Part shown: one piece after another, positions 33,530-58,564 of the stretch
Layout: each line of letters starts with the position of its first letter
Position numbering within the stretch: position 1 is the stretch's first letter
Assembly: GCA_945913285.1 (NCBI GenBank)
Contig: CAMEDD010000012.1
Span: forward strand, 1 to 63,908
DNA length: 63,908 nucleotides
Direction: 5' to 3'
From: Candidatus Sulfopaludibacter sp. SbA3
Lineage (GTDB): Bacteria > Pseudomonadota > Alphaproteobacteria > Caulobacterales > Hyphomonadaceae
Position numbers and translations under genes: made by a program
The notes under the pieces: generated by a model
The model's input: the letters and a program-made list of their open reading frames with translations, nothing else
Databases searched by the model: none
Told to the model about the DNA's origin: nothing

Positions 33530-34822
33530 TTGTCGAAACCGAAGAAGGCCTACCGCAAACGCGAAATCGGCGGTCATGCGCTAAGCCCCGAATCCCTCGT
33601 GATGGGATTCGGCTATGATCCGTTCATGTCGGAAGGCTCGATCAAGCCGCCGATCTTCATGACCTCGACCTTCGCCTTCAAATCCGCCCGCGACGGCGAG
33701 GCGCTGTTCCGCCGTCTTGCAGGCCGGCATGAAGTGGGCGATCCGGAAGACGCAGACCTCATCTACACGCGCTTCAACAACCCGAACATGGAAGTGCTCG
33801 AAGACCGGCTCACGCTCTATGATGAGGGCGAAGCGGCGCTCGCATTTTCGTCCGGCATGTCCGCGATCACGACCGCGCTGTTTGCCTGCGCCGAGCCCGG
33901 CACGACGGTGCTGCATTCGAGCCCGCTCTACGGCGCGTCCGAAGTCTTCATCCGCTCGTTCCTGCCCGAATGGGGCGTGCGCTCCGCGGAATTCGACGCC
34001 TGGTCCACCGAAGACCAGATTCTCGCTGCGGCGCGGGCTTCGGTGAAAGCGACTGGCCCGATCTCGGTCATCTACACCGAGTCCCCCGCCAATCCGACCA
34101 ATGCCCTCGTGGACATCGCCGCCTGCGCGCGCGTGTGCGACGTGCTGGAGACGGAAACGGGCCGCCGTCCGATCCTGATGTGCGACAACACGATGATGGG
34201 ACCCATCGGCCACAAGCCTCTGAAGCATGGGGCCGATCTCGCGCTCTATTCGCTGACCAAATATGTCGGTGGCCACTCGGACCTGATCGCGGGCGGTATC
34301 ACCGGCAATGAGGAGATGATGACGAGGATCCGCCGAATGCGCAATTATCTCGGCACGATGCTGGATGCCCATTCCTGCTGGCTGCTGACGCGCTCGCTGG
34401 AAACCGTCCAGCTGCGCATGGAGCGCGCATTCCGGAACGCGAAAGTCTGCGCGGAGTTCCTGCGCGATCATCCCAAGGTCACGGCCGTCATGTATCCCGG
34501 TTTCCTGAAAGAGGGCGATCCGCAGAAGAAGGTCTATGACGAGCAGTGCGAGTCCGCCGGCGCGACCTTCGCGTTCGATGTGAAGGGCGGCAAGGAAGCG
34601 GCATTCCGGATGCTGGACCATCTGCAACTCATCAAGCTCGCCGTCAGCCTCGGCGGTACCGAAAGCCTGATGTGCCATCCGGGCTCAACCACGCATTCGG
34701 CCGTGCCGGCAGACGTGCGCGCGCGCATCGGCTTCACGGACGGTCTGGTTCGGTTCTCGGTGGGGATCGAAGCCTCCGAAGACCTCCTTGCAGACCTCGG
34801 CCAGGCGCTCGCCCACGCCTGA
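33530..34822 (+). CDS. Cystathionine gamma-synthase / methionine gamma-lyase family PLP enzyme
   Basis: A 430-residue Cys/Met-metabolism PLP enzyme. SSGMSAI binds the PLP phosphate, the cofactor-aspartate region is CDNTMMGP, the Schiff-base lysine is in YSLTKYVGGHSD, and the C-terminal GGTESLMCHPGSTTHS is a family signature. Members make or break C-S bonds (gamma-synthase, gamma-lyase), and the exact reaction cannot be set from sequence. The TTG at 33530 is chosen because cgggagg precedes it by 5-6 bases; the upstream open frame has no family resemblance. Confidence 0.92.
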   Translation: MSKPKKAYRKREIGGHALSPESLVMGFGYDPFMSEGSIKPPIFMTSTFAFKSARDGEALFRRLAGRHEVGDPEDADLIYTRFNNPNMEVLEDRLTLYDEGEAALAFSSGMSAITTALFACAEPGTTVLHSSPLYGASEVFIRSFLPEWGVRSAEFDAWSTEDQILAAARASVKATGPISVIYTESPANPTNALVDIAACARVCDVLETETGRRPILMCDNTMMGPIGHKPLKHGADLALYSLTKYVGGHSDLIAGGITGNEEMMTRIRRMRNYLGTMLDAHSCWLLTRSLETVQLRMERAFRNAKVCAEFLRDHPKVTAVMYPGFLKEGDPQKKVYDEQCESAGATFAFDVKGGKEAAFRMLDHLQLIKLAVSLGGTESLMCHPGSTTHSAVPADVRARIGFTDGLVRFSVGIEASEDLLADLGQALAHA

Positions 34823-34874: not shown

Positions 34875-34951
34875 GATCCCGTAGCTCAGCAGGATAGAGC
34901 GAGTGATTCCTAATCACTAGGTCGGAGGTTCGAATCCTCTCGGGGTCACCA
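34875..34951 (+). tRNA. tRNA-Arg (anticodon CCT)
   Basis: A full cloverleaf can be drawn. The acceptor gatcccg pairs with cggggtc (one T-G wobble). The D-arm agctcag...agagc and the anticodon stem agtga/tcact enclose loop ttcctaa with anticodon CCT. The T-arm ggaggttcgaatcctc and a genome-encoded CCA complete it. It reads AGG codons. The CCA ends one base before the stop of the minus-strand operon that follows. Confidence 0.95.
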
Positions 34952-34952
34952 C

Positions 34953-36041
34953 TCACTCGCGTGTGGGATGCAGCGTGCCGCAGCGGATGTCATAAATGAT
35001 GGCCTTGTCGCTGTGTGTCAGCGCTTGGCTGCTGGCAGGGTCGACGCGCACGGCGTCCGCAAGGGCGGGGCCCGGCTGGACAGGGTTCATGAACACCCGC
35101 TCGCAGAACCGCGCGCCGGGTCGGGCGGATGCGATGACTCCGTTCCAGCAGGCATCGTAGTCGGACTGGCCGCAATAGGATCCGAAGTCCGACAAGGAGA
35201 ACGCGTCAAAGGGACCGAGGCCAGAGGCGCCGAGAGCATCCAGCCCGGTTTCGGTAATCTCGATCAGGTCGATCCGCTCCCGGACGACGGCGAGATTTTC
35301 TGGCCGCATATGCAGCGGAAGGGCGCGCTGCACCGAATGGCGGCCATGGAACAGCAGGACGGCAAAGTCGGAACCCCGGAACAGGATATGCTTCGCTGCC
35401 CGCCGGAAAAGTCCGGTGAGGCGCGCTTCGCTTTCGGCCGGCGGCGGCAGGAACGCGCCTCCCGGCTCCCCGATGATCCGTGTCCAGAACCAGCGCTGCG
35501 CGAGAACGCGCACGGCGCCGTGCCAGAGGCCATCGTCGAACCGCGTGCGCCAGATATCCGCCTGTTCGCTGAGGCTGCTCGCCGCGAAAAGTCTGTCAAT
35601 CGACCGCCCGCGCAAGCGGCGTGTGCCGAACGCGCCGAGGCGAAGCACCCGCTCCCAACGGCCTGAATGCCAGACCCCCGATGCGATAGCGCCCGGGCGC
35701 GCCTCCCAGAAGGCGCGCGACGCCGGCGGCAATCCGGCGGCCACGCGCCGGTGCAGGTCAGGCCGGTGCCGACTGTTTGCAATGCCGAGATAGGCATACA
35801 GAGCTTCGTCCTCCAGCACCTTGAAGGCGGCGATCTTCAGCCGGAGGAGTTCGTTCTGTGCGGGGTTGATGTCGATGGCGGTGATGCGGGCCGGGTTGCC
35901 CAGAAGCAGGTCCAATGGCCGTGCGCCGCTCGCCGTCAGGCATAGGACGTGATCGGACGGCGCCAGCGCCAGCGCTTCCAATTCGGTTGCGCCGTCTTCA
36001 TTGGCCGAGGTGAAATTCAGGGTCCGGCTGAAATCCGCCAT
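34953..36041 (-). CDS. DUF3419/BtaA-like aminocarboxypropyl transferase homologue
   Basis: A 362-residue protein with an N-terminal SAM-binding Rossmann region (VLCLTASGARPLDLLL, then ITAIDINPAQNEL) and a DUF3419-type C-terminal half (FDAFSLSDFGSY). BtaA of betaine-lipid synthesis, in this family, moves the 3-amino-3-carboxypropyl group of SAM to diacylglycerol. No BtaB-like methyltransferase is in view, so a plain betaine lipid is not implied. This is the last gene of a six-gene minus-strand operon, 6 bp after the oxygenase homologue. I infer that it adds a homoserine-like group to the operon's product. Confidence 0.85.
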   Translation of the reverse strand: MADFSRTLNFTSANEDGATELEALALAPSDHVLCLTASGARPLDLLLGNPARITAIDINPAQNELLRLKIAAFKVLEDEALYAYLGIANSRHRPDLHRRVAAGLPPASRAFWEARPGAIASGVWHSGRWERVLRLGAFGTRRLRGRSIDRLFAASSLSEQADIWRTRFDDGLWHGAVRVLAQRWFWTRIIGEPGGAFLPPPAESEARLTGLFRRAAKHILFRGSDFAVLLFHGRHSVQRALPLHMRPENLAVVRERIDLIEITETGLDALGASGLGPFDAFSLSDFGSYCGQSDYDACWNGVIASARPGARFCERVFMNPVQPGPALADAVRVDPASSQALTHSDKAIIYDIRCGTLHPTRE

Positions 36042-36047
36042 GAGGGG

Positions 36048-36902
36048 TCAGACCTTCAGCAGAACGCGCCGAGGGGCGGCGCAGGGCGTTCGCCCCGAGA
36101 GGATCGCTTCGATACCTGGCCGAAGCACATCCTGCGGCGCAAAGACCAGCGGCGCCGGCCCGTGTGCCGCGCGGTTTGCGCCGATGAGTTCGAGGATCGC
36201 GCGGTCTTCGGCGAATATCCGCTGGAAGAACAATTTCAGCGCGGCGAGCTTCAGGTCCGCCCACGCGCCGTCGCCCGGCACGGCAATGGTCGCCGCCACA
36301 TAGGTTTCGCCGGGCCGGGCAGGTGTGAGACGGAAGCGGGCCACGAACGCCATTCTGCCATCCCGGCAATAGGTCACTTCGGCAATCGCGGGCGCGCGGA
36401 ATGTATCGGTGATGGTGTACCGGTGTGCCCCAAGCAGGCGCGCGCCCCAGCCGCTGGGCGCTGCTCCTGCCGGATAGGTGGCCGAGATCCAGCCGTCGCC
36501 GGAGGAGATCTGCGCCTCCACGCAGCGGCGGTCTCCCGGCTTTCGCAGATAGTCCTGATGCACCACGCTCGTATGCGTCGTGTCGAGAATGTTCTCGGCC
36601 ACATCGCCGAGCCCGGCGCGAACGTATCCCTCAAGATGGAGTTGACGGTTAGGCCCGGCGAAGATCTCCGTTTCGCAGGGCTCGTGCGTGTCTCGGTCAC
36701 CTATCGCCGCAAAGATCCATCCGGAACGTTCGGCGACAGCCCGGGGCTGGCCGCTCTTCATGCAACGTCCATTTGCGACGCGCGCGCACGTTCGCCTAAG
36801 CTCTATCGGCGCGCCGGCCAGATGACGCACGGCAGCGCCGGCGCCAAGATCATGCGCCCGTATCAAGGGATACCACCCTGCAGGGAAGACTGTCTCATTC
36901 AT
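36048..36902 (-). CDS. Rieske-oxygenase homologue lacking the Rieske centre
   Basis: A 284-residue protein that aligns by eye with ring-hydroxylating or aliphatic Rieske oxygenases. The N-terminal strand WYPLIRAHDLGAG and the catalytic-domain iron motif ILDTTHTSVVH (Asp107, His110, His115) are present, with the C-terminal EDRAILE region. Both cluster motifs (CxH and CxxH) are absent. The chain jumps from the second Rieske strand (PIELRR) to the post-cluster segment (NGRCMKSGQP). It therefore cannot hold a [2Fe-2S] cluster of its own. The mononuclear iron could still be loaded. Its start overlaps the adenylate-forming gene (ATGA), so it is still translated in the operon. Confidence 0.8.
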   Translation of the reverse strand: MNETVFPAGWYPLIRAHDLGAGAAVRHLAGAPIELRRTCARVANGRCMKSGQPRAVAERSGWIFAAIGDRDTHEPCETEIFAGPNRQLHLEGYVRAGLGDVAENILDTTHTSVVHQDYLRKPGDRRCVEAQISSGDGWISATYPAGAAPSGWGARLLGAHRYTITDTFRAPAIAEVTYCRDGRMAFVARFRLTPARPGETYVAATIAVPGDGAWADLKLAALKLFFQRIFAEDRAILELIGANRAAHGPAPLVFAPQDVLRPGIEAILSGRTPCAAPRRVLLKV

Positions 36903-38176
36903 GGCGCAATGCCGGGTGACCGGATAACGCGGCGCAGTTTTCCGCCTTGCGGCGGCAGAAGCGGCGCTGTCCCGGCGTTGATCTGGGGGCGCGCGCCGTG
37001 CCGGGCGAAGAGGTCCTGCAAGGCGCGCTCTGCGGCCGGAAGTTCTGCGGCGAGCTGAGGCGGCAGGATGAGCGAGACCGCATCCGGCCCGGACTGGACA
37101 ACACGAAAATCTTTGATCAGGCGGCTCGCGGACACCACGGCATTGCGTATCACATCCGGCGTAATGCGCACCGCCTGGCTCCCCTCCCCTTTCAGCTGGA
37201 AAGTGTCATCCTGGCGCCCGGCAACCGCCGTGACGGCTTGCAAGGGTGACCCGCACGCGCAGGGCTCTTCCGAGAGTTTCAGCAGGTCGTTCATCCGGTA
37301 GCGGACCATCATCTGGGTGCGGCGGGTAAAGTCCGTGACCAGCGGCGCGGAAAGATCACCTGAGGGCTCCCATTCGAACGCGACGCAGTCTTCACACAGG
37401 TGCAGCCTGCCGTGCGTGCACGCCGCGCCGAACAGGCCTTCGGTTGCCATGTAGATTTCCCGGACGCCCAGCCCGAACCGCGCCTCGATTTCGCCGCGGT
37501 CGGCAGGGTCCAGAACTTCGGCGCCGGAAAAGACGTGCTGCGGCGCAAGCGCCAGATCGGCCCGCGCCAGCGCCAGCAGCGCGTGCGGCGGCGCCACGAT
37601 TACGTTGGGCCGGAAGTTCGCAACCGCTGGAAGCTGTATGTCCAGCCCGTCCGCGAGGTCAAAGAACTTCAGCGCCAGCCGCCCGGATTCATTGGCCGCA
37701 TCGTACAGCCGGCTGCTGCGCGGCAACATCAGGGCGACGCGGTAACGGGCAGACAGCATGTCGGGCAACGCCTTGGCGAGGAGGGTGCCGAGCCAGAGGT
37801 AGCGCTCAGCATCGCTCACCAGATAGAGGCCGCGATTGCCACTGGTGCCCGTACTTGCGCCCACTGAGTAATGGCCGATCCGGTGAGATGTCTCGAGGGC
37901 TTGCCAGCCCGCGTCCGCGGTGATGCCGGGTACGTTGTAACGATGAAAGCCGGACATCAGAGCGTCCTTGTCCATCACCGGATAGTCCGTCAGCCGATGA
38001 CTGGCGATGCCAGAGAAAGCTGCAACTTTCGGCGCCGTGTTCCTAAGGAAGCGCTCCAGCCGGGCAGACTGCCACTTCAGCAGCTGGTCGCGCGTGCGCA
38101 GCCGTTTGGCGCGGGCGCTCGCTCGCCAGAAGGCCGACAGCGTGAGTGCCAGAGCCATGGGTGACGCGCCGCTCAT
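36899..38176 (-). CDS. Adenylate-forming enzyme, F390-synthetase/CapK-like (TIGR02304 type)
   Basis: A 425-residue member of the PaaK/CapK/F390-synthetase branch of adenylate-forming enzymes. The P-loop is STGTSGNRG near 128-136, the adenine region is EIYMATEGLFGA, and the hinge region is MVRYRMNDLLKL, followed by the C-terminal AMP-binding tail (RQDDTFQLKG). It lacks a carrier-protein domain. The family activates a carboxylate as acyl-AMP and passes it to CoA or another acceptor. It overlaps both neighbours by 4 bp. I infer that it activates or ligates an acyl intermediate of this operon's pathway. Confidence 0.85.
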   Translation of the reverse strand: MSGASPMALALTLSAFWRASARAKRLRTRDQLLKWQSARLERFLRNTAPKVAAFSGIASHRLTDYPVMDKDALMSGFHRYNVPGITADAGWQALETSHRIGHYSVGASTGTSGNRGLYLVSDAERYLWLGTLLAKALPDMLSARYRVALMLPRSSRLYDAANESGRLALKFFDLADGLDIQLPAVANFRPNVIVAPPHALLALARADLALAPQHVFSGAEVLDPADRGEIEARFGLGVREIYMATEGLFGAACTHGRLHLCEDCVAFEWEPSGDLSAPLVTDFTRRTQMMVRYRMNDLLKLSEEPCACGSPLQAVTAVAGRQDDTFQLKGEGSQAVRITPDVIRNAVVSASRLIKDFRVVQSGPDAVSLILPPQLAAELPAAERALQDLFARHGARPQINAGTAPLLPPQGGKLRRVIRSPGIAP

Positions 38177-38952
38177 GTGAGCGGTTCCGGATCATGGCAC
38201 AGCACGACCTTGCCGCCCGCTGCCTCGAATGCGTTCAGCCGGCACGCGGTGGCCTCGGCCGCTTCACGGTCGTCGAGAATCCACCGGGCGGGCGCGCCCG
38301 GCGACCTGCGTTCCCGAATTGCCCTGGCGAGCCAGTCCGCATCACCGGCATAGAGCACCGGGACGGCCTGCTTCGCGAACAGGTATCCCGTATGGCCACG
38401 CATATGGCCGGGAAGGGGCACCGCGAGCACTTCTCCGTCTGCGAAAACATCCCGTGCGGGACCAAGACCGAACGGGGCTTCCACCACGGCAAGGGACTCA
38501 AGCGAGACAATCCGCGCCGCCAGATCGTCCGGCAGCAGTTCGCGGAACACGCCATGCCGCGTCCGCCCAAAAGTGCCGGCCGACAGGAAGTGCGACACCG
38601 AATCTGCGTCCGCAATCAACTGCGCCGACGGATAGTCCCTCAGCGCCGAGACATGATCGGCATGCAGATGGGTGATCAGTATGGTCGCAGCCTGCGGCGA
38701 GGCGTCTGGCAGAACGCTCTCAGTCAGGTGCGGCCGAAGAACAGCGCTATAGAGCGTCAGCGGCAGCGACCGGCGCCCCTGCGTCACGCGGCGGGAATAC
38801 CCGGTGTCGATCAGGCAGGTGCCCACACGTTCATGGACGAAGCGGCCATATCGCACGGCAAGCTCAACCTCCTGCCATCGCCCACCTTTCAGAACGAGAC
38901 GTTCCGGCACCCGAACGGTTGCGCTGCTGGGAAAGGACAAGCCGGTGATCAT
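38173..38952 (-). CDS. Metallo-beta-lactamase-fold hydrolase of the biosynthetic operon
   Basis: A 259-residue MBL protein with THLHADH (His95, His97, Asp99, His100), a GHMRGHTG third-ligand loop and the YAGDADW metal-bridging aspartate. There is no signal peptide. Such enzymes often hydrolyse thioesters, lactones or phosphodiesters. In this operon a role as acyl thioesterase or lactonase is plausible but inferred. The ATG at 38952 overlaps the stop of the upstream epimerase gene, which fixes the start; a long upstream open frame is antisense noise. Confidence 0.9.
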   Translation of the reverse strand: MITGLSFPSSATVRVPERLVLKGGRWQEVELAVRYGRFVHERVGTCLIDTGYSRRVTQGRRSLPLTLYSAVLRPHLTESVLPDASPQAATILITHLHADHVSALRDYPSAQLIADADSVSHFLSAGTFGRTRHGVFRELLPDDLAARIVSLESLAVVEAPFGLGPARDVFADGEVLAVPLPGHMRGHTGYLFAKQAVPVLYAGDADWLARAIRERRSPGAPARWILDDREAAEATACRLNAFEAAGGKVVLCHDPEPLT

Positions 38953-39920
38953 GCCGGCACCTCGAAGGTGCGCCGGAGGCCCTCTTCGAAGGAGACGGCG
39001 GGACTCCAGCCGAGATGTGCCTTGGCTGCGGAGATATCGAGTGTCTGCGTGAAAGCGAACAGGCCCGCGCCGTAAGCGGTGATGCGCGGCTCCGGCCGCT
39101 GGCTCTGCATATGGCTCGCCACTTCCATCGCGCGTGCTGCCACAAGCAGTACCCTTGACGGCATACTCCGCCAGCGGACGGCTACGCCGGCCCGCGCACA
39201 GGCGGCCTCCGTAATCGTGCGAATGGATTTGGGCTCGCCTCCGGAAATGTTGAACACCCGCTTGGGGAGTCCGGCTGGTGCGCGAAGGGCGGCCAGAACA
39301 CTGTCGACGACGTCGTCGATGTGCGTCAGGTCTGTCTCGGCCGATCCGCCCCGCACCAGCGGCAGCGGTCCTGTCGTGGCGGCGCGCAGCAATCGGGGCA
39401 GAAGCGCCGTGTCGCCGGGACCGTACAGGCCGCGAGGGCGCAGGATGAGATAGTCGAGGTCGGTCTGCGTCTGCACCAGGCTTTCGGCTTCGCGCTTTGT
39501 CGCGGCATACGCGTTGACAGGCTGCGGCAGCGCCATGTCCTCCCGCACGAGGCGCTGATCGCACAACCGGAAATACAGGCTTGGCGTTGAGATGTGCACA
39601 AAGCGCCGGGCGCCCGAAATGCGGGCAAATGCCAGCGCCGATGAGGTGGCGTATACATTCGCGGCGCGAAAGCCTGCATAGGCGCCCCAGGCGGAGGACA
39701 GCGCTGCGCAATGGATCACGGCTGACACGTCCGTCCCGGGTGCGGGCGGGGCGCCGCGGGAAAGATCGCCGGCGATGCATGTCGCGCCGAGCTGCTCCAA
39801 TGCGGCGAGCTTGGTCTCGTTGCGGCCCATCGCGATCACCGAATGTCCGGTGCCCAGCAGTTGCCGCGCCAGCGCGCCGCCCAGAAATCCTGTTGCGCCA
39901 GTGATTGCAATCGCGGTCAC
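38949..39920 (-). CDS. NAD(P)-dependent epimerase/reductase (SDR, 3beta-HSD/OleD-like)
   Basis: A 323-residue extended SDR with ITGATGFLGGALARQL at 6-21, a Ser/Thr at about 111-112 and the catalytic YAATK (Tyr138, Lys142). The SDLTHIDDVV-type segment (ETDLTHIDDVVDSV) and the C-terminal LGWSP motif are typical of the 3beta-HSD/OleD group, which reduces beta-keto acids or sugars. Directly downstream of the condensing enzyme (4-bp gap), reduction of its beta-keto product is the natural guess. Confidence 0.88.
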   Translation of the reverse strand: MTAIAITGATGFLGGALARQLLGTGHSVIAMGRNETKLAALEQLGATCIAGDLSRGAPPAPGTDVSAVIHCAALSSAWGAYAGFRAANVYATSSALAFARISGARRFVHISTPSLYFRLCDQRLVREDMALPQPVNAYAATKREAESLVQTQTDLDYLILRPRGLYGPGDTALLPRLLRAATTGPLPLVRGGSAETDLTHIDDVVDSVLAALRAPAGLPKRVFNISGGEPKSIRTITEAACARAGVAVRWRSMPSRVLLVAARAMEVASHMQSQRPEPRITAYGAGLFAFTQTLDISAAKAHLGWSPAVSFEEGLRRTFEVPA

Positions 39921-39924
39921 AGGA

Positions 39925-40971
39925 TCAAGTCTCCAGAACCGCTCCGGCGAGCGATACGCCGGCCGAGGTTCCGATCAGCAGAATGCGCATGCCGGGGCGG
40001 ATCAGCCCCTCGGCGCGGGCCATACAAAGCGCGGTCGGAATGGACGCAGCCACCAGGTTTCCGATCGTCCGGACACGGTCAAAAACAAGGGCTGCGGGAA
40101 ACCCGCCGCGCCGAACGATATGGGTCAGCGCATGCGGGCTCGCCTGATGCGGCACAACGAGATCGATATCTTTGCGCGCGAGGCCGGACCTCCCGAGCAA
40201 CCTGTCGAGGAACCCGGTCAGAGCCGCTGCGGTGATCCGGTAAAGGGCTTTGCCGTCCATCCGGAAATACGCGCTGCGGGCAAAGGCGTCGGGGTCAGCA
40301 TGGAAGTCGATCCCTGTGCCGCCCGCGGCCAGCGTGCAGGCGTCATATCCGTCCGCGAACGTCTCCATGTAAAAGCCGCCAAACCGGGCGCTGGACTTCT
40401 GCCCGGTACCAGCGGCGCTGACGACGAACGCGGCCGCGCCATCGCCAAACAATCCGGCCGTCTCCGGCGCATCTGCCCAGGGCAAGGCGCGTGAGGCGAT
40501 TTCCGATGTGACGACGAGTACGTGGCGCGCGCGCCCTGCCGCGATGTTGAGGGCAGCCAGGTCAAGCCCAACCAGTGCGCTGAGGCAGGTGGCGTTCACA
40601 TCATAGGCCGGAAAGTTCAGCTTGCCGCCGCCGAGTTCGCGTTTGATCAGGGGCGCCGTGGCAGGAATGGGCTGGCGGCCGACAGCGGCGCCGAACAGCA
40701 TAAGGCTGACATCGTCCAGCTGCAGGCCGGCGTCGAGAAGCGCGCCGCGGGCTGCGGCGGCCCCGAGGCCTTCCTGCGTTTCGTTTGCGCCGGCCACCGG
40801 ACGGCTGGCGACGCCGCAGGCGCCTTCAAGCCAGCCTTCGGGTTTGCCCAGCCTGAGATCGATCTCGGCCGATGTAACCAGCCGCTCGGGCAGCGCGAGG
40901 CAGAACCCGGAAAGCACGGGGCTCGTCGCGGGCAGGACGGCAGGGCGCAGGCGCTTTGTGTGAGTGAACAT
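39925..40971 (-). CDS. KAS III / OleA-like condensing enzyme
   Basis: A 348-residue thiolase-fold enzyme with the full KAS III triad: Cys129 in DVNATCLSAL, His275 in VPHQAS and Asn305 in RTIGNLVAAS. It joins acyl-CoA or acyl-ACP units. Because a separate regular fabH is expected elsewhere in the genome, this copy probably starts a special pathway, as OleA or other KAS III-like enzymes do. It is the first gene of the six-gene minus-strand operon; the ATG at 40971 has no strong ribosome site. Confidence 0.92.
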   Translation of the reverse strand: MFTHTKRLRPAVLPATSPVLSGFCLALPERLVTSAEIDLRLGKPEGWLEGACGVASRPVAGANETQEGLGAAAARGALLDAGLQLDDVSLMLFGAAVGRQPIPATAPLIKRELGGGKLNFPAYDVNATCLSALVGLDLAALNIAAGRARHVLVVTSEIASRALPWADAPETAGLFGDGAAAFVVSAAGTGQKSSARFGGFYMETFADGYDACTLAAGGTGIDFHADPDAFARSAYFRMDGKALYRITAAALTGFLDRLLGRSGLARKDIDLVVPHQASPHALTHIVRRGGFPAALVFDRVRTIGNLVAASIPTALCMARAEGLIRPGMRILLIGTSAGVSLAGAVLET

Positions 40972-41104
40972 TTACGCATTATACTGCGCTTCGACCGGGC
41001 TGGCAAGCACGCTGGCGCTGGCCAGTCAGATCGCAGGCAGGAAGTGGGGCGGGTCCAGCCGCAATCTCGGCCGGCAAAGCGCTTGACGGGTCACGAAAGC
41101 TTAT

Positions 41105-41125
41105 GTACTTTGAAAATCAAAGTAC
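41105..41125. promoter_or_regulatory. Perfect palindromic operator
   Basis: GTACTTTGA at 41105-41113 and its exact reverse complement TCAAAGTAC at 41117-41125 flank AAA. The site lies 15 bp before the six-TM protein start. The downstream winged-helix protein is the obvious candidate to bind it. This is inferred from the layout. Confidence 0.7.
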
Positions 41126-41140
41126 TACATGGAGCTGTCG

Positions 41141-57466: not shown

Positions 57467-58564
57467 TTGCCCGATACTCAGACCGTCCCTGCGAAGACCG
57501 GCATCACCGATGAGGGCTACCTCACCGATTGCTGGTACCTGGCTGCGCCGTCCGCGCGCCTGTTGCCGGGCAGGCAGACGCGTCTGATGTTCCTCGGCGA
57601 ACCGGTGGTCGTCGGCCGTACGCCCGCCGGCGAAGCCTTCGCGCTGCGTGACATCTGCCCCCACCGCCTCGTGCCCCTCTCCGCTGGCAGCCAGGTCGAG
57701 ACGAAGGGCGAGTGGACCCTGCAATGCCCCTATCACGGCTGGCGCTTCGGCACCGATGGCGGCTGCCGCCTGATGCCGAGCCTGACGGATGACAGCCCGT
57801 ATGATCCCACAAAGGTGAAGGTCCGCCGCTACCCGGTCTATGAGGCGAACGGCGCGGTCTACATCTACATCGCGCACGATCCGCGAAGCACGGCGCTGCC
57901 CGCGGTGCCGCCGCCGGGATTTGGTCCGCTCCCGGACAAACCGGGCTTCGTCATCGAGGACGTGTTCAACGCCCACATGGACGACGCCGTCGTCGGCCTG
58001 ATGGATCCCGCCCACGTGCCCTTCGTGCATAACCAGTGGTGGTGGCGCCCGCCCTCCACGGGCCTGAAGCTCAAGCAGAAACCCTTCGGCCCGATCGAAC
58101 GCGGCTGGGCCATCGATCGGCATGCGCCGTCATCAAATTCGAAACTCTACCGCTGGGTCTTCGGCGGCAATGTGCAGACCGAGATCTGCTTCCAGCTGCC
58201 CGGATACCGCTGGGAAATCATCTCGAACGACACCGCGCGGCTTTTGACGCTGACCTGCCTGACGCCCGAAGCGCCGAAGAAAACCCGCATCACGCAGTTC
58301 ACCTGGTGGACCGGTGCGCCGCTGCTCCACCTCGCCGTGCCGCTCGCCAAGCGCATGGGAAAAACCTTCCTCGCGCAGGACGGGCGCATGGTGGACCTGC
58401 AAAACATGGGGCTGGCGCACCAGAAGGCGATGCTCTGGATCGACGACATCGACGTGCAGGCCAAATGGTACCAGCAGCTGAAGCGCGAATGGGCCGCTGC
58501 CCGAACCGAGGGGCGGGCGTTCGAGAATCCCATCCAGCAACGCACGCTGAAGTGGAAGAGCTAG
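57467..58564 (+). CDS. Rieske non-haem iron oxygenase
   Basis: A 365-residue oxygenase alpha subunit. The Rieske motifs are CPHRLVPL (Cys64, His66) and CPYHGW (Cys87, His90), and the mononuclear iron motif is [13 protein letters not shown] (Asp180, His183, His188). It resembles the vanillate/phenoxybenzoate and aliphatic oxygenase group, and its substrate is unknown. Start TTG 57467, with a weak ribosome site, 8 bp after the inhibitor gene. No reductase or ferredoxin gene is close, so electrons must come from a partner elsewhere. Confidence 0.92.

Follow-up and report, generated by a model that had tools for sequence, protein, structure and literature searches.

We analysed six adjoining minus-strand genes at positions 34953-40971 of a 63,908-nucleotide stretch (contig CAMEDD010000012.1, hereafter the window) from Candidatus Sulfopaludibacter sp. 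SbA3, a member of the Hyphomonadaceae. They encode, in order, a KAS III-type ketosynthase (KAS), an OleD-like short-chain dehydrogenase/reductase (SDR), a metallo-beta-lactamase-fold (MBL) hydrolase, an F390-synthetase-related adenylate-forming enzyme (TIGR02304), a Rieske-oxygenase-fold protein and a DUF3419 protein (genes 1 to 6). Results showed that the conserved unit is a four-gene core, KAS-SDR-MBL-TIGR02304, rather than the six genes together, and that the pair of oxygenase and DUF3419 genes is one among several sets that particular lineages have added to it. From the enzyme families and their neighbours we tentatively favour, at somewhat less than an even chance, the biosynthesis of an acyl product that bears a hydroxyl and is most likely a polar lipid or a lipid-like metabolite.

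TIGR02304 was searched in the host's own family, where 28 of 105 genomes matched (22 over the cut-off), and in sampled genomes of the phylum, where 60 of 398 matched (7 over the cut-off). The 46 loci examined comprised 34 genome stretches, 11 plasmid stretches (of 64 matching plasmid records) and the window. Gene presence was scored by tblastn and catalytic residues by alignment columns, and the added genes were named from Pfam scans of representatives, annotation and tblastn. Seven of the eight named matching loci came from Hyphomonadaceae/Hyphomonas metagenome-assembled genomes, and the eighth was a weak match. The core was present in the same order in 40 of the 46 loci, whose hosts were Alphaproteobacteria, Gammaproteobacteria and, on two plasmids, Bacillales; in both Bacillales loci an ATP-grasp gene sits between KAS and SDR. 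No adjoining core was found in L084, L085, L099-L101 and L110 (6/46); TIGR02304 was over the cut-off in L084 and L085, L099-L101 were weak matches included on purpose, and the absence in L110 was judged from annotation. The Cys/His/Asn triad of the KAS, Ser/Tyr/Lys of the SDR, and HxHxDH with the further His, Asp and His of the MBL protein were invariant in all 40 core loci, as were T-E-G, Asp297, Gly320, Arg321 and Lys413 of TIGR02304 in 42 of 42 proteins, L084 and L085 included. All six window genes are under purifying selection, with ratios of nonsynonymous to synonymous substitution (dN/dS) of 0.08-0.26 against four relatives; chance gene order is thus ruled out by these ratios together with the recurrence of the core. 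The initial annotation had treated the six-gene operon as the unit and proposed a survey of TIGR02304 neighbours, which might have found no conservation elsewhere. The operon proved real and conserved together in other genomes, but the unit is the core, and the last two genes of the operon are swappable.

The added genes differed between lineages. A GT1-like glycosyltransferase lies directly behind the core in 12 of the 40 core loci, nine in the genus of the window and three in a sister genus, and the oxygenase with DUF3419 occurs in seven, namely the window and six congeneric genomes. ATP-grasp with a full Rieske oxygenase was found in four loci, among which L089 also has a GNAT gene; GNAT with full Rieske and ATP-grasp in four (L094, L095, L105, L111); and PAP2 with a fatty acid hydroxylase and a desaturase in four (Escherichia coli and three of the four f49 genomes). 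The remaining additions were each found in two of the 40 loci: DUF3419 with GNAT and no oxygenase (Rhizobium pMK-2, Shinella oryzae), a divergent sulfotransferase beside the core (Ketogulonicigenium, Paracoccus), and the internal ATP-grasp of the Bacillales loci, one of which also has GNAT. In all, ATP-grasp was present in 10 of 40 core loci and GNAT in 8 of 40. Within the genus, 16 of 42 genomes had TIGR02304 over the cut-off, seven of the oxygenase-DUF3419 type and nine of the glycosyltransferase type, and the two types were never found together; an extra TIGR02304 copy on a 3.2-kb contig of G070 was left untyped. When the four core proteins were concatenated and a tree of 40 rows was built from them, every one of the eight named groups formed one side of a branch, and the three unlabelled rows were scattered. 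Nine labels required 8 changes on this tree, which is the minimum, whereas shuffled labels averaged 25.7 and none of 200 shuffles was as low; a later tblastn survey overturned none of the labels, though it showed GNAT in L103 and L104, which were entered as DUF3419 only, and likewise in L089 and L112. These results indicate that the added genes track the core phylogeny. The lineage swaps offer a direct route to guessing the scaffold, by asking what could carry sugar, sulfate or aminocarboxypropyl groups.

Two loci showed the decorating genes apart from the core: L084 (15905-19900) and L085 (16055-19263) have a TIGR02304 gene with no adjoining KAS, SDR or MBL gene, yet with divergent full Rieske and GNAT genes, so that they hold a decorating set without a core there; L084 also has an ATP-grasp gene, clipped by the end of the stretch. 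The Bacillales plasmid cores lie at 5108-10332 of L108 and 4758-11324 of L112, and the GNAT-type gene behind the latter shares its family with the ones in Rhizobium, Shinella and L089.

Table 1 Features of the window locus and of the E. coli version of the core
Feature	Position	Strand	Family, residues or remarks
Gene 1, KAS III-type ketosynthase, 348 aa	39925..40971	-	PF08541/PF08545; Cys129-His275-Asn305
Gene 2, NAD-dependent epimerase/dehydratase-type SDR, OleD-like, 323 aa, GTG start	38949..39920	-	PF01370; Ser111/Tyr138/Lys142
Gene 3, MBL-fold hydrolase, AHL-lactonase-like, 259 aa	38173..38952	-	PF00753; HxHxDH, His183, Asp204, His253
Gene 4, F390-synthetase-related adenylate-forming enzyme, 425 aa	36899..38176	-	TIGR02304
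Gene 5, Rieske-oxygenase-fold protein without [2Fe-2S] ligand segment, 284 aa	36048..36902	-	VanA_C PF19112; mononuclear iron site Asp107, His110, His115, Asp233
Gene 6, DUF3419 (BtaA-related) protein, 362 aa	34953..36041	-	PF11899; own clade within DUF3419
tRNA-Arg(CCT), left boundary of cluster	34875..34951	+	homology to cluster-less relative stops at tRNA 3' end
Promoter-like site TTGCCA-17-TATAAT, sigma-70-like, immediately before gene 1	40978..41006	-	consensus match only; 1 found vs 0.5 expected
Intergenic stretch, site of P450 gene in other six clade members	40972..41128	.	77 bp = P450-KAS spacer of L071, 87% identity
E. coli core with PAP2, sterol-desaturase-type hydroxylase and desaturase	L107 6191-13072; L173 2592-9473		between narI and tRNA-Tyr pair

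The order, strand, coordinates and spacing of the six open reading frames (ORFs) were all reproduced as first annotated, and Pfam and NCBIfam scans upheld the six family calls (KAS III, OleD-like SDR, MBL, TIGR02304, Rieske-less VanA_C and DUF3419). KAS and SDR are separated by 4 bp; SDR-MBL, MBL-TIGR02304 and TIGR02304-oxygenase overlap by 4 bp each; and a gap of 6 bp precedes the DUF3419 gene, whose stop codon is 1 bp from the tRNA-Arg(CCT). The identical six-gene order was found in six further genomes of the genus at 60-91% identity.

Among solved structures, the KAS was nearest to MxnB (152 bits) and CorB (143), ahead of the next entry, the FabH protein 4ryb (123), and of E. coli FabH, 1hn9 (103). 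MxnB and CorB make alpha-pyrones in the myxopyronin and corallopyronin pathways, which are not known to include an SDR, an MBL protein or an adenylating enzyme as partners; the window protein shares their FabH-type Cys-His-Asn triad (40/40) and a hydrophobic residue in place of the catalytic glutamate of OleA and PpyS, but its six genes include no modular polyketide synthase. The column of that glutamate (OleA E117, PpyS E105), located through the MxnB alignment and PMC4578411, held Ile in 29 and Leu in 11 of the 40 core loci and Glu in none. That paper gives MxnB and CorB as lacking the glutamate and places both in the FabH clade (PMC4578411), and the mechanism of MxnB is described in PMC5724707. 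The missing residue argues against an OleA-type mechanism and would leave FabH-like extension or MxnB-like joining of chains. Of the KAS III/OleA-like function first assigned to gene 1, the KAS III family thus held and the OleA likeness gave way to a FabH/MxnB-like one.

With the OleABCD olefin/beta-lactone pathway the operon shares a clustered KAS-type condensing enzyme, OleD-like SDR and adenylate-forming enzyme. It differs in that an MBL protein replaces the alpha/beta hydrolase, a PaaK/F390-type enzyme replaces OleC, and extra tailoring genes are present. Family scans of the six genes gave no match to the OleB alpha/beta hydrolase or to OleC, and although OleD was the best NCBIfam match of the SDR, its score (184.8 bits) fell below the equivalog cut-off of 580. 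An OleABCD variant is ruled out by these failures together with that of the OleA glutamate, which bears out the earlier claim that the operon is distinct from OleABCD. Gene 4 scored 285.4 bits for TIGR02304 (cut-off 251.9), and the nearest named families of the MBL protein were N-acyl homoserine lactone (AHL) lactonases.

In the pathway that we propose, the KAS would join two acyl units to a beta-keto chain, which the SDR would reduce to a beta-hydroxy chain; hydrolysis of a thioester, lactone or ester may fall to the MBL protein, and the adenylating enzyme may activate a carboxylate and join it to an alcohol or amine. The last genes would then alter the chain and attach a group to a hydroxyl. 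For the window clade, we propose that this group is the aminocarboxypropyl of S-adenosylmethionine (SAM), which DUF3419 would transfer to the product hydroxyl; the place of this step would be taken by the glycosyltransferase behind the core in the sister lineage and by the sulfotransferase beside it in others. The homoserine-like cap suggested in the initial annotation is thus a putative one. A lipid is hinted at by E. coli and three f49 genomes, in which PAP2 genes follow the core together with hydroxylase and desaturase genes. The main rival is a core whose product is a small signal or antibiotic of the lactone or pyrone type instead of a membrane lipid: a MxnB/CorB-like KAS would fuse chains, the SDR reduce them, the lactonase-like MBL protein edit a ring, and the adenylating enzyme make the ester or lactone. 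The KAS scores, the lactonase relatives of gene 3, and the patchy distribution and plasmid location typical of secondary metabolism all suit this scheme. It is, however, faced with the absence of the head-to-head OleA/PpyS glutamate in 40 of 40 loci, and hydroxylase, desaturase and PAP2 genes suit lipids better. Moreover, since MxnB and CorB lie in the FabH clade (PMC4578411), likeness to them alone is no sign of chain fusion. On balance we consider the lactone or pyrone product unlikely, if well worth keeping in view.

Several observations weigh against a decorated polar lipid. Because the nearest solved KAS proteins make alpha-pyrones, a small pyrone-like product is conceivable. No acyl carrier protein is encoded among the six genes, and the solved-structure relatives of the MBL protein and the adenylating enzyme are weak, so that the reactions proposed for them are tentative. 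ATP-grasp and GNAT genes fit amide chemistry as well as hydroxyl decoration, and 3 of the 40 core loci (L081, L093, L113) showed no recognised added gene. The link between sulfotransferase and core is weaker, because these neighbours are divergent and in both Ketogulonicigenium and Paracoccus a TetR gene separates them from the core. Relatedness alone would partly produce the sorting of added genes on the core tree. Finally, gene 6 lies outside the clade of reference DUF3419 proteins and lacks the Tyr, Gln and Trp fixed in them (columns 10, 12 and 14) before a shared Glu-Asp.

A catabolic operon seems improbable. In it, an exogenous acid would be activated by adenylation and opened by the oxygenase and by the P450 that relatives have, with KAS and SDR acting in a reverse-type or thiolase-like manner. 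Degradation pathways do contain P450, Rieske-fold, MBL and PaaK-like ligase genes, and these families are present in the cluster or its relatives. Nevertheless, the KAS III triad is intact in 40 of 40 loci, hydratase and thiolase genes are absent among the six, and partners of the glycosyltransferase, sulfotransferase or SAM-transferase type suggest synthesis. Neither a paper on the gene set nor an assigned product was found in the literature searched, which excludes most subscription journals; within that scope the result agrees with the earlier statement that no assigned product was known for this combination. The F390 synthetase of the ladderane paper belongs to another cluster, and two further papers name an F390 synthetase gene in tables only. 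A more far-reaching version, which we regard as rather unlikely in its entirety, is that the core is a general, unnamed acyl-scaffold pathway of Alphaproteobacteria, Gammaproteobacteria including E. coli, and Bacillota, finished interchangeably with a sugar, sulfate, amino acid or SAM aminocarboxypropyl group; the window clade would then make a homoserine-ether acyl lipid, and its oxygenase would be a Rieske oxygenase minus the electron-entry domain with the iron site kept, using a foreign electron donor or no redox chemistry.

Gene 6, described earlier as BtaA/DUF3419-like, scored 160.8 bits for PF11899 (DUF3419; cut-off 28.2). It is the sole DUF3419 gene found in the genome, and across the genus DUF3419 was over the cut-off only inside the seven clusters, a match in G075 being below it. 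The cluster proteins of Rhizobium and Shinella are 46-47% identical to that of the window. In a DUF3419 tree of 48 rows with long branches, the nine cluster rows formed one clade (99% by the Shimodaira-Hasegawa-like approximate likelihood ratio test, SH-aLRT), 29 reference rows another and ten family rows a third; seven duplicates had been removed, and L130-L132 (fragmentary or weak) and L133 (at a contig edge) were left out. The 29 reference rows are the main Proteobacteria DUF3419 group, which we take as BtaA by inference only. According to a review, BtaA is an aminocarboxypropyl transferase acting on SAM (PMC10491745). Like BtaA, the SAM:diacylglycerol aminocarboxypropyl transferase, gene 6 shares DUF3419 and SAM-type core residues; unlike it, gene 6 is bound to the KAS core and has no BtaB-like methyltransferase neighbour, its neighbours being the oxygenase, the tRNA and a pyridoxal phosphate (PLP) enzyme, whereas a methyltransferase domain adjoins all three reference DUF3419 genes examined (of 29). 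A true BtaA was therefore rejected on the separate clade and the lack of this neighbour; DUF3419 membership was sustained, and the name BtaA serves as a lead and not an identification.

The DUF3419 protein could instead carry out a different reaction with SAM (methylation, or cyclisation or lysis of SAM) and transfer no aminocarboxypropyl group to the product. We think this somewhat unlikely. Besides the 99% clade and the absent BtaB-like neighbour, 11 columns are fixed differently in the cluster rows and the 39 reference rows, three of them gaps in the references. The poor structure model (predicted local distance difference test score 59.6) gave weak Foldseek matches to ordinary methyltransferases, which may point the same way; a search of solved structures gave chance-level matches only. 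Against this stand the shared Pfam family, over its cut-off, and 19 residues common to at least 46 of the 48 rows, including Gly39, Asp57 and Asn59. DUF3419 clusters occupy two separate branches of the core tree (Hyphomonas; Rhizobium/Shinella) yet form one clade on the DUF3419 tree, which suggests that the partnership of core and DUF3419 outlived loss or transfer.

The third DUF3419 group (L114-L123) comes from two genera of the family, g5 and g10; in three of its genomes (G090, G091, G098) DUF3419 and the TIGR02304 match lie on different contigs, and in L114 the ORF next to DUF3419 has a phosphoenolpyruvate-utilisers mobile domain. The PLP enzyme of Cys/Met metabolism (PF01053) in the window, at 33590-34822 (+), is convergent with the operon; it is 87-98% identical in 11 other genomes of the 42 in the genus, and its other matches reach at most 42%; a link to the SAM-using gene 6 is conceivable.

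Gene 5 has the Rieske-oxygenase fold and the mononuclear iron ligands and lacks the [2Fe-2S] ligands. About 45 residues holding the latter (CxH...CxxH) are missing in 7 of 7 clade orthologues; the identical clean gap in all seven rules out a sequencing or annotation error. The motif is kept in 10 of 10 Rieske relatives beside other TIGR02304 genes and in none of the seven of the window clade. Asp100, Glu103, Asn104, Asp107, His110, His115 and Asp233 are invariant in the seven orthologues and in 10 of 10 rows of an alignment that included five full-length relatives. The protein could be a dead or purely structural relic, and in this respect the electron-entry segment is missing throughout the clade, dN/dS of gene 5 (0.18-0.26) is the highest or second highest of the six genes in every comparison, and the Rhizobium and Shinella DUF3419 clusters have no oxygenase. 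We judge a relic to be quite unlikely, because the iron-site set is invariant, purifying selection on gene 5 persists, and the gene is kept in all seven clade members, the window included despite its P450 loss.

If gene 5 encodes a working iron protein, it may, like NdmC, be supplied with electrons by a separate carrier, or it may have given up redox chemistry. To our knowledge, NdmC is the sole precedent for a Rieske oxygenase site without its own electron carrier. NdmC, of the caffeine N7-demethylase NdmCDE, is described as a Rieske-oxygenase relative that has no Rieske cluster and keeps its non-heme iron function (PMC4408171). Gene 5 resembles it in lacking the Rieske cluster and keeping iron-site residues, and differs in that no NdmD-like Rieske reductase was found with it. 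The solved-structure search gave no match for gene 5, and NdmC was absent from the VIA-align list, a re-examination of Foldseek hits only. The Rieske-less protein offers a natural experiment on the capabilities of a Rieske oxygenase active site that has lost its own electron carrier. Only two Rieske domains were found in the host genome (assembly 93% complete), in a 365-aa full oxygenase and a 204-aa frame. The former, at 57467-58564 (+) of the window, carries Rieske and VanA_C domains and is, apart from gene 5, the sole Rieske-type oxygenase found in this genome; it is a possible partner of the Rieske-less protein.

The boundaries of the cluster give some indication of its history. A P450 gene lies directly upstream of KAS in all six other clade members, intact in five and in three pieces in L078; in the window it is gone, and 77 bp of the P450-KAS spacer are retained. 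Relocation of the P450 within the window genome was rejected, the best other match being 41% identical, whereas the clade's other four intact P450s are 74-94% identical to that of L071. The range of dN/dS suggests that P450 loss did not end selection on the other genes, in comparisons that also span time before the loss. In the other six members the tRNA-Arg lies 1-6 bp from gene 6 in four, overlaps it by 35 bp in L071 and is 1,758 bp away in L083. In G073, which has no TIGR02304 match, the two flanks (79-83% identity) are about 455 bp apart, and the left flank runs exactly to the tRNA-Arg 3' end. This empty site (L174 4226-4680) retains a 68-residue N-terminal P450 remnant, and we therefore rejected a never-occupied site and consider cluster loss likelier there. 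Judged from these remnants, the cluster was probably lost in G073 and trimmed in the window.

Of 5,426 E. coli genomes, 671 (about one-eighth) matched a 7,051-bp E. coli query (core, PAP2, hydroxylase and desaturase) over 80% or more of its length, a figure that describes coverage only and not the intactness of each copy. Nothing on the E. coli locus or its function was found in the literature searched, with the same exclusion of most subscription journals; a core that extends from Hyphomonas to about one-eighth of complete E. coli genomes, with no product in that literature, would point to a blank in the known chemistry of a well-studied species. The E. coli locus has the same four-gene core in the same order as the window, and PAP2, hydroxylase and desaturase genes where the window has the oxygenase and DUF3419. 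In E. coli NRG 857C, the cluster lies between narI and two tRNA-Tyr genes.

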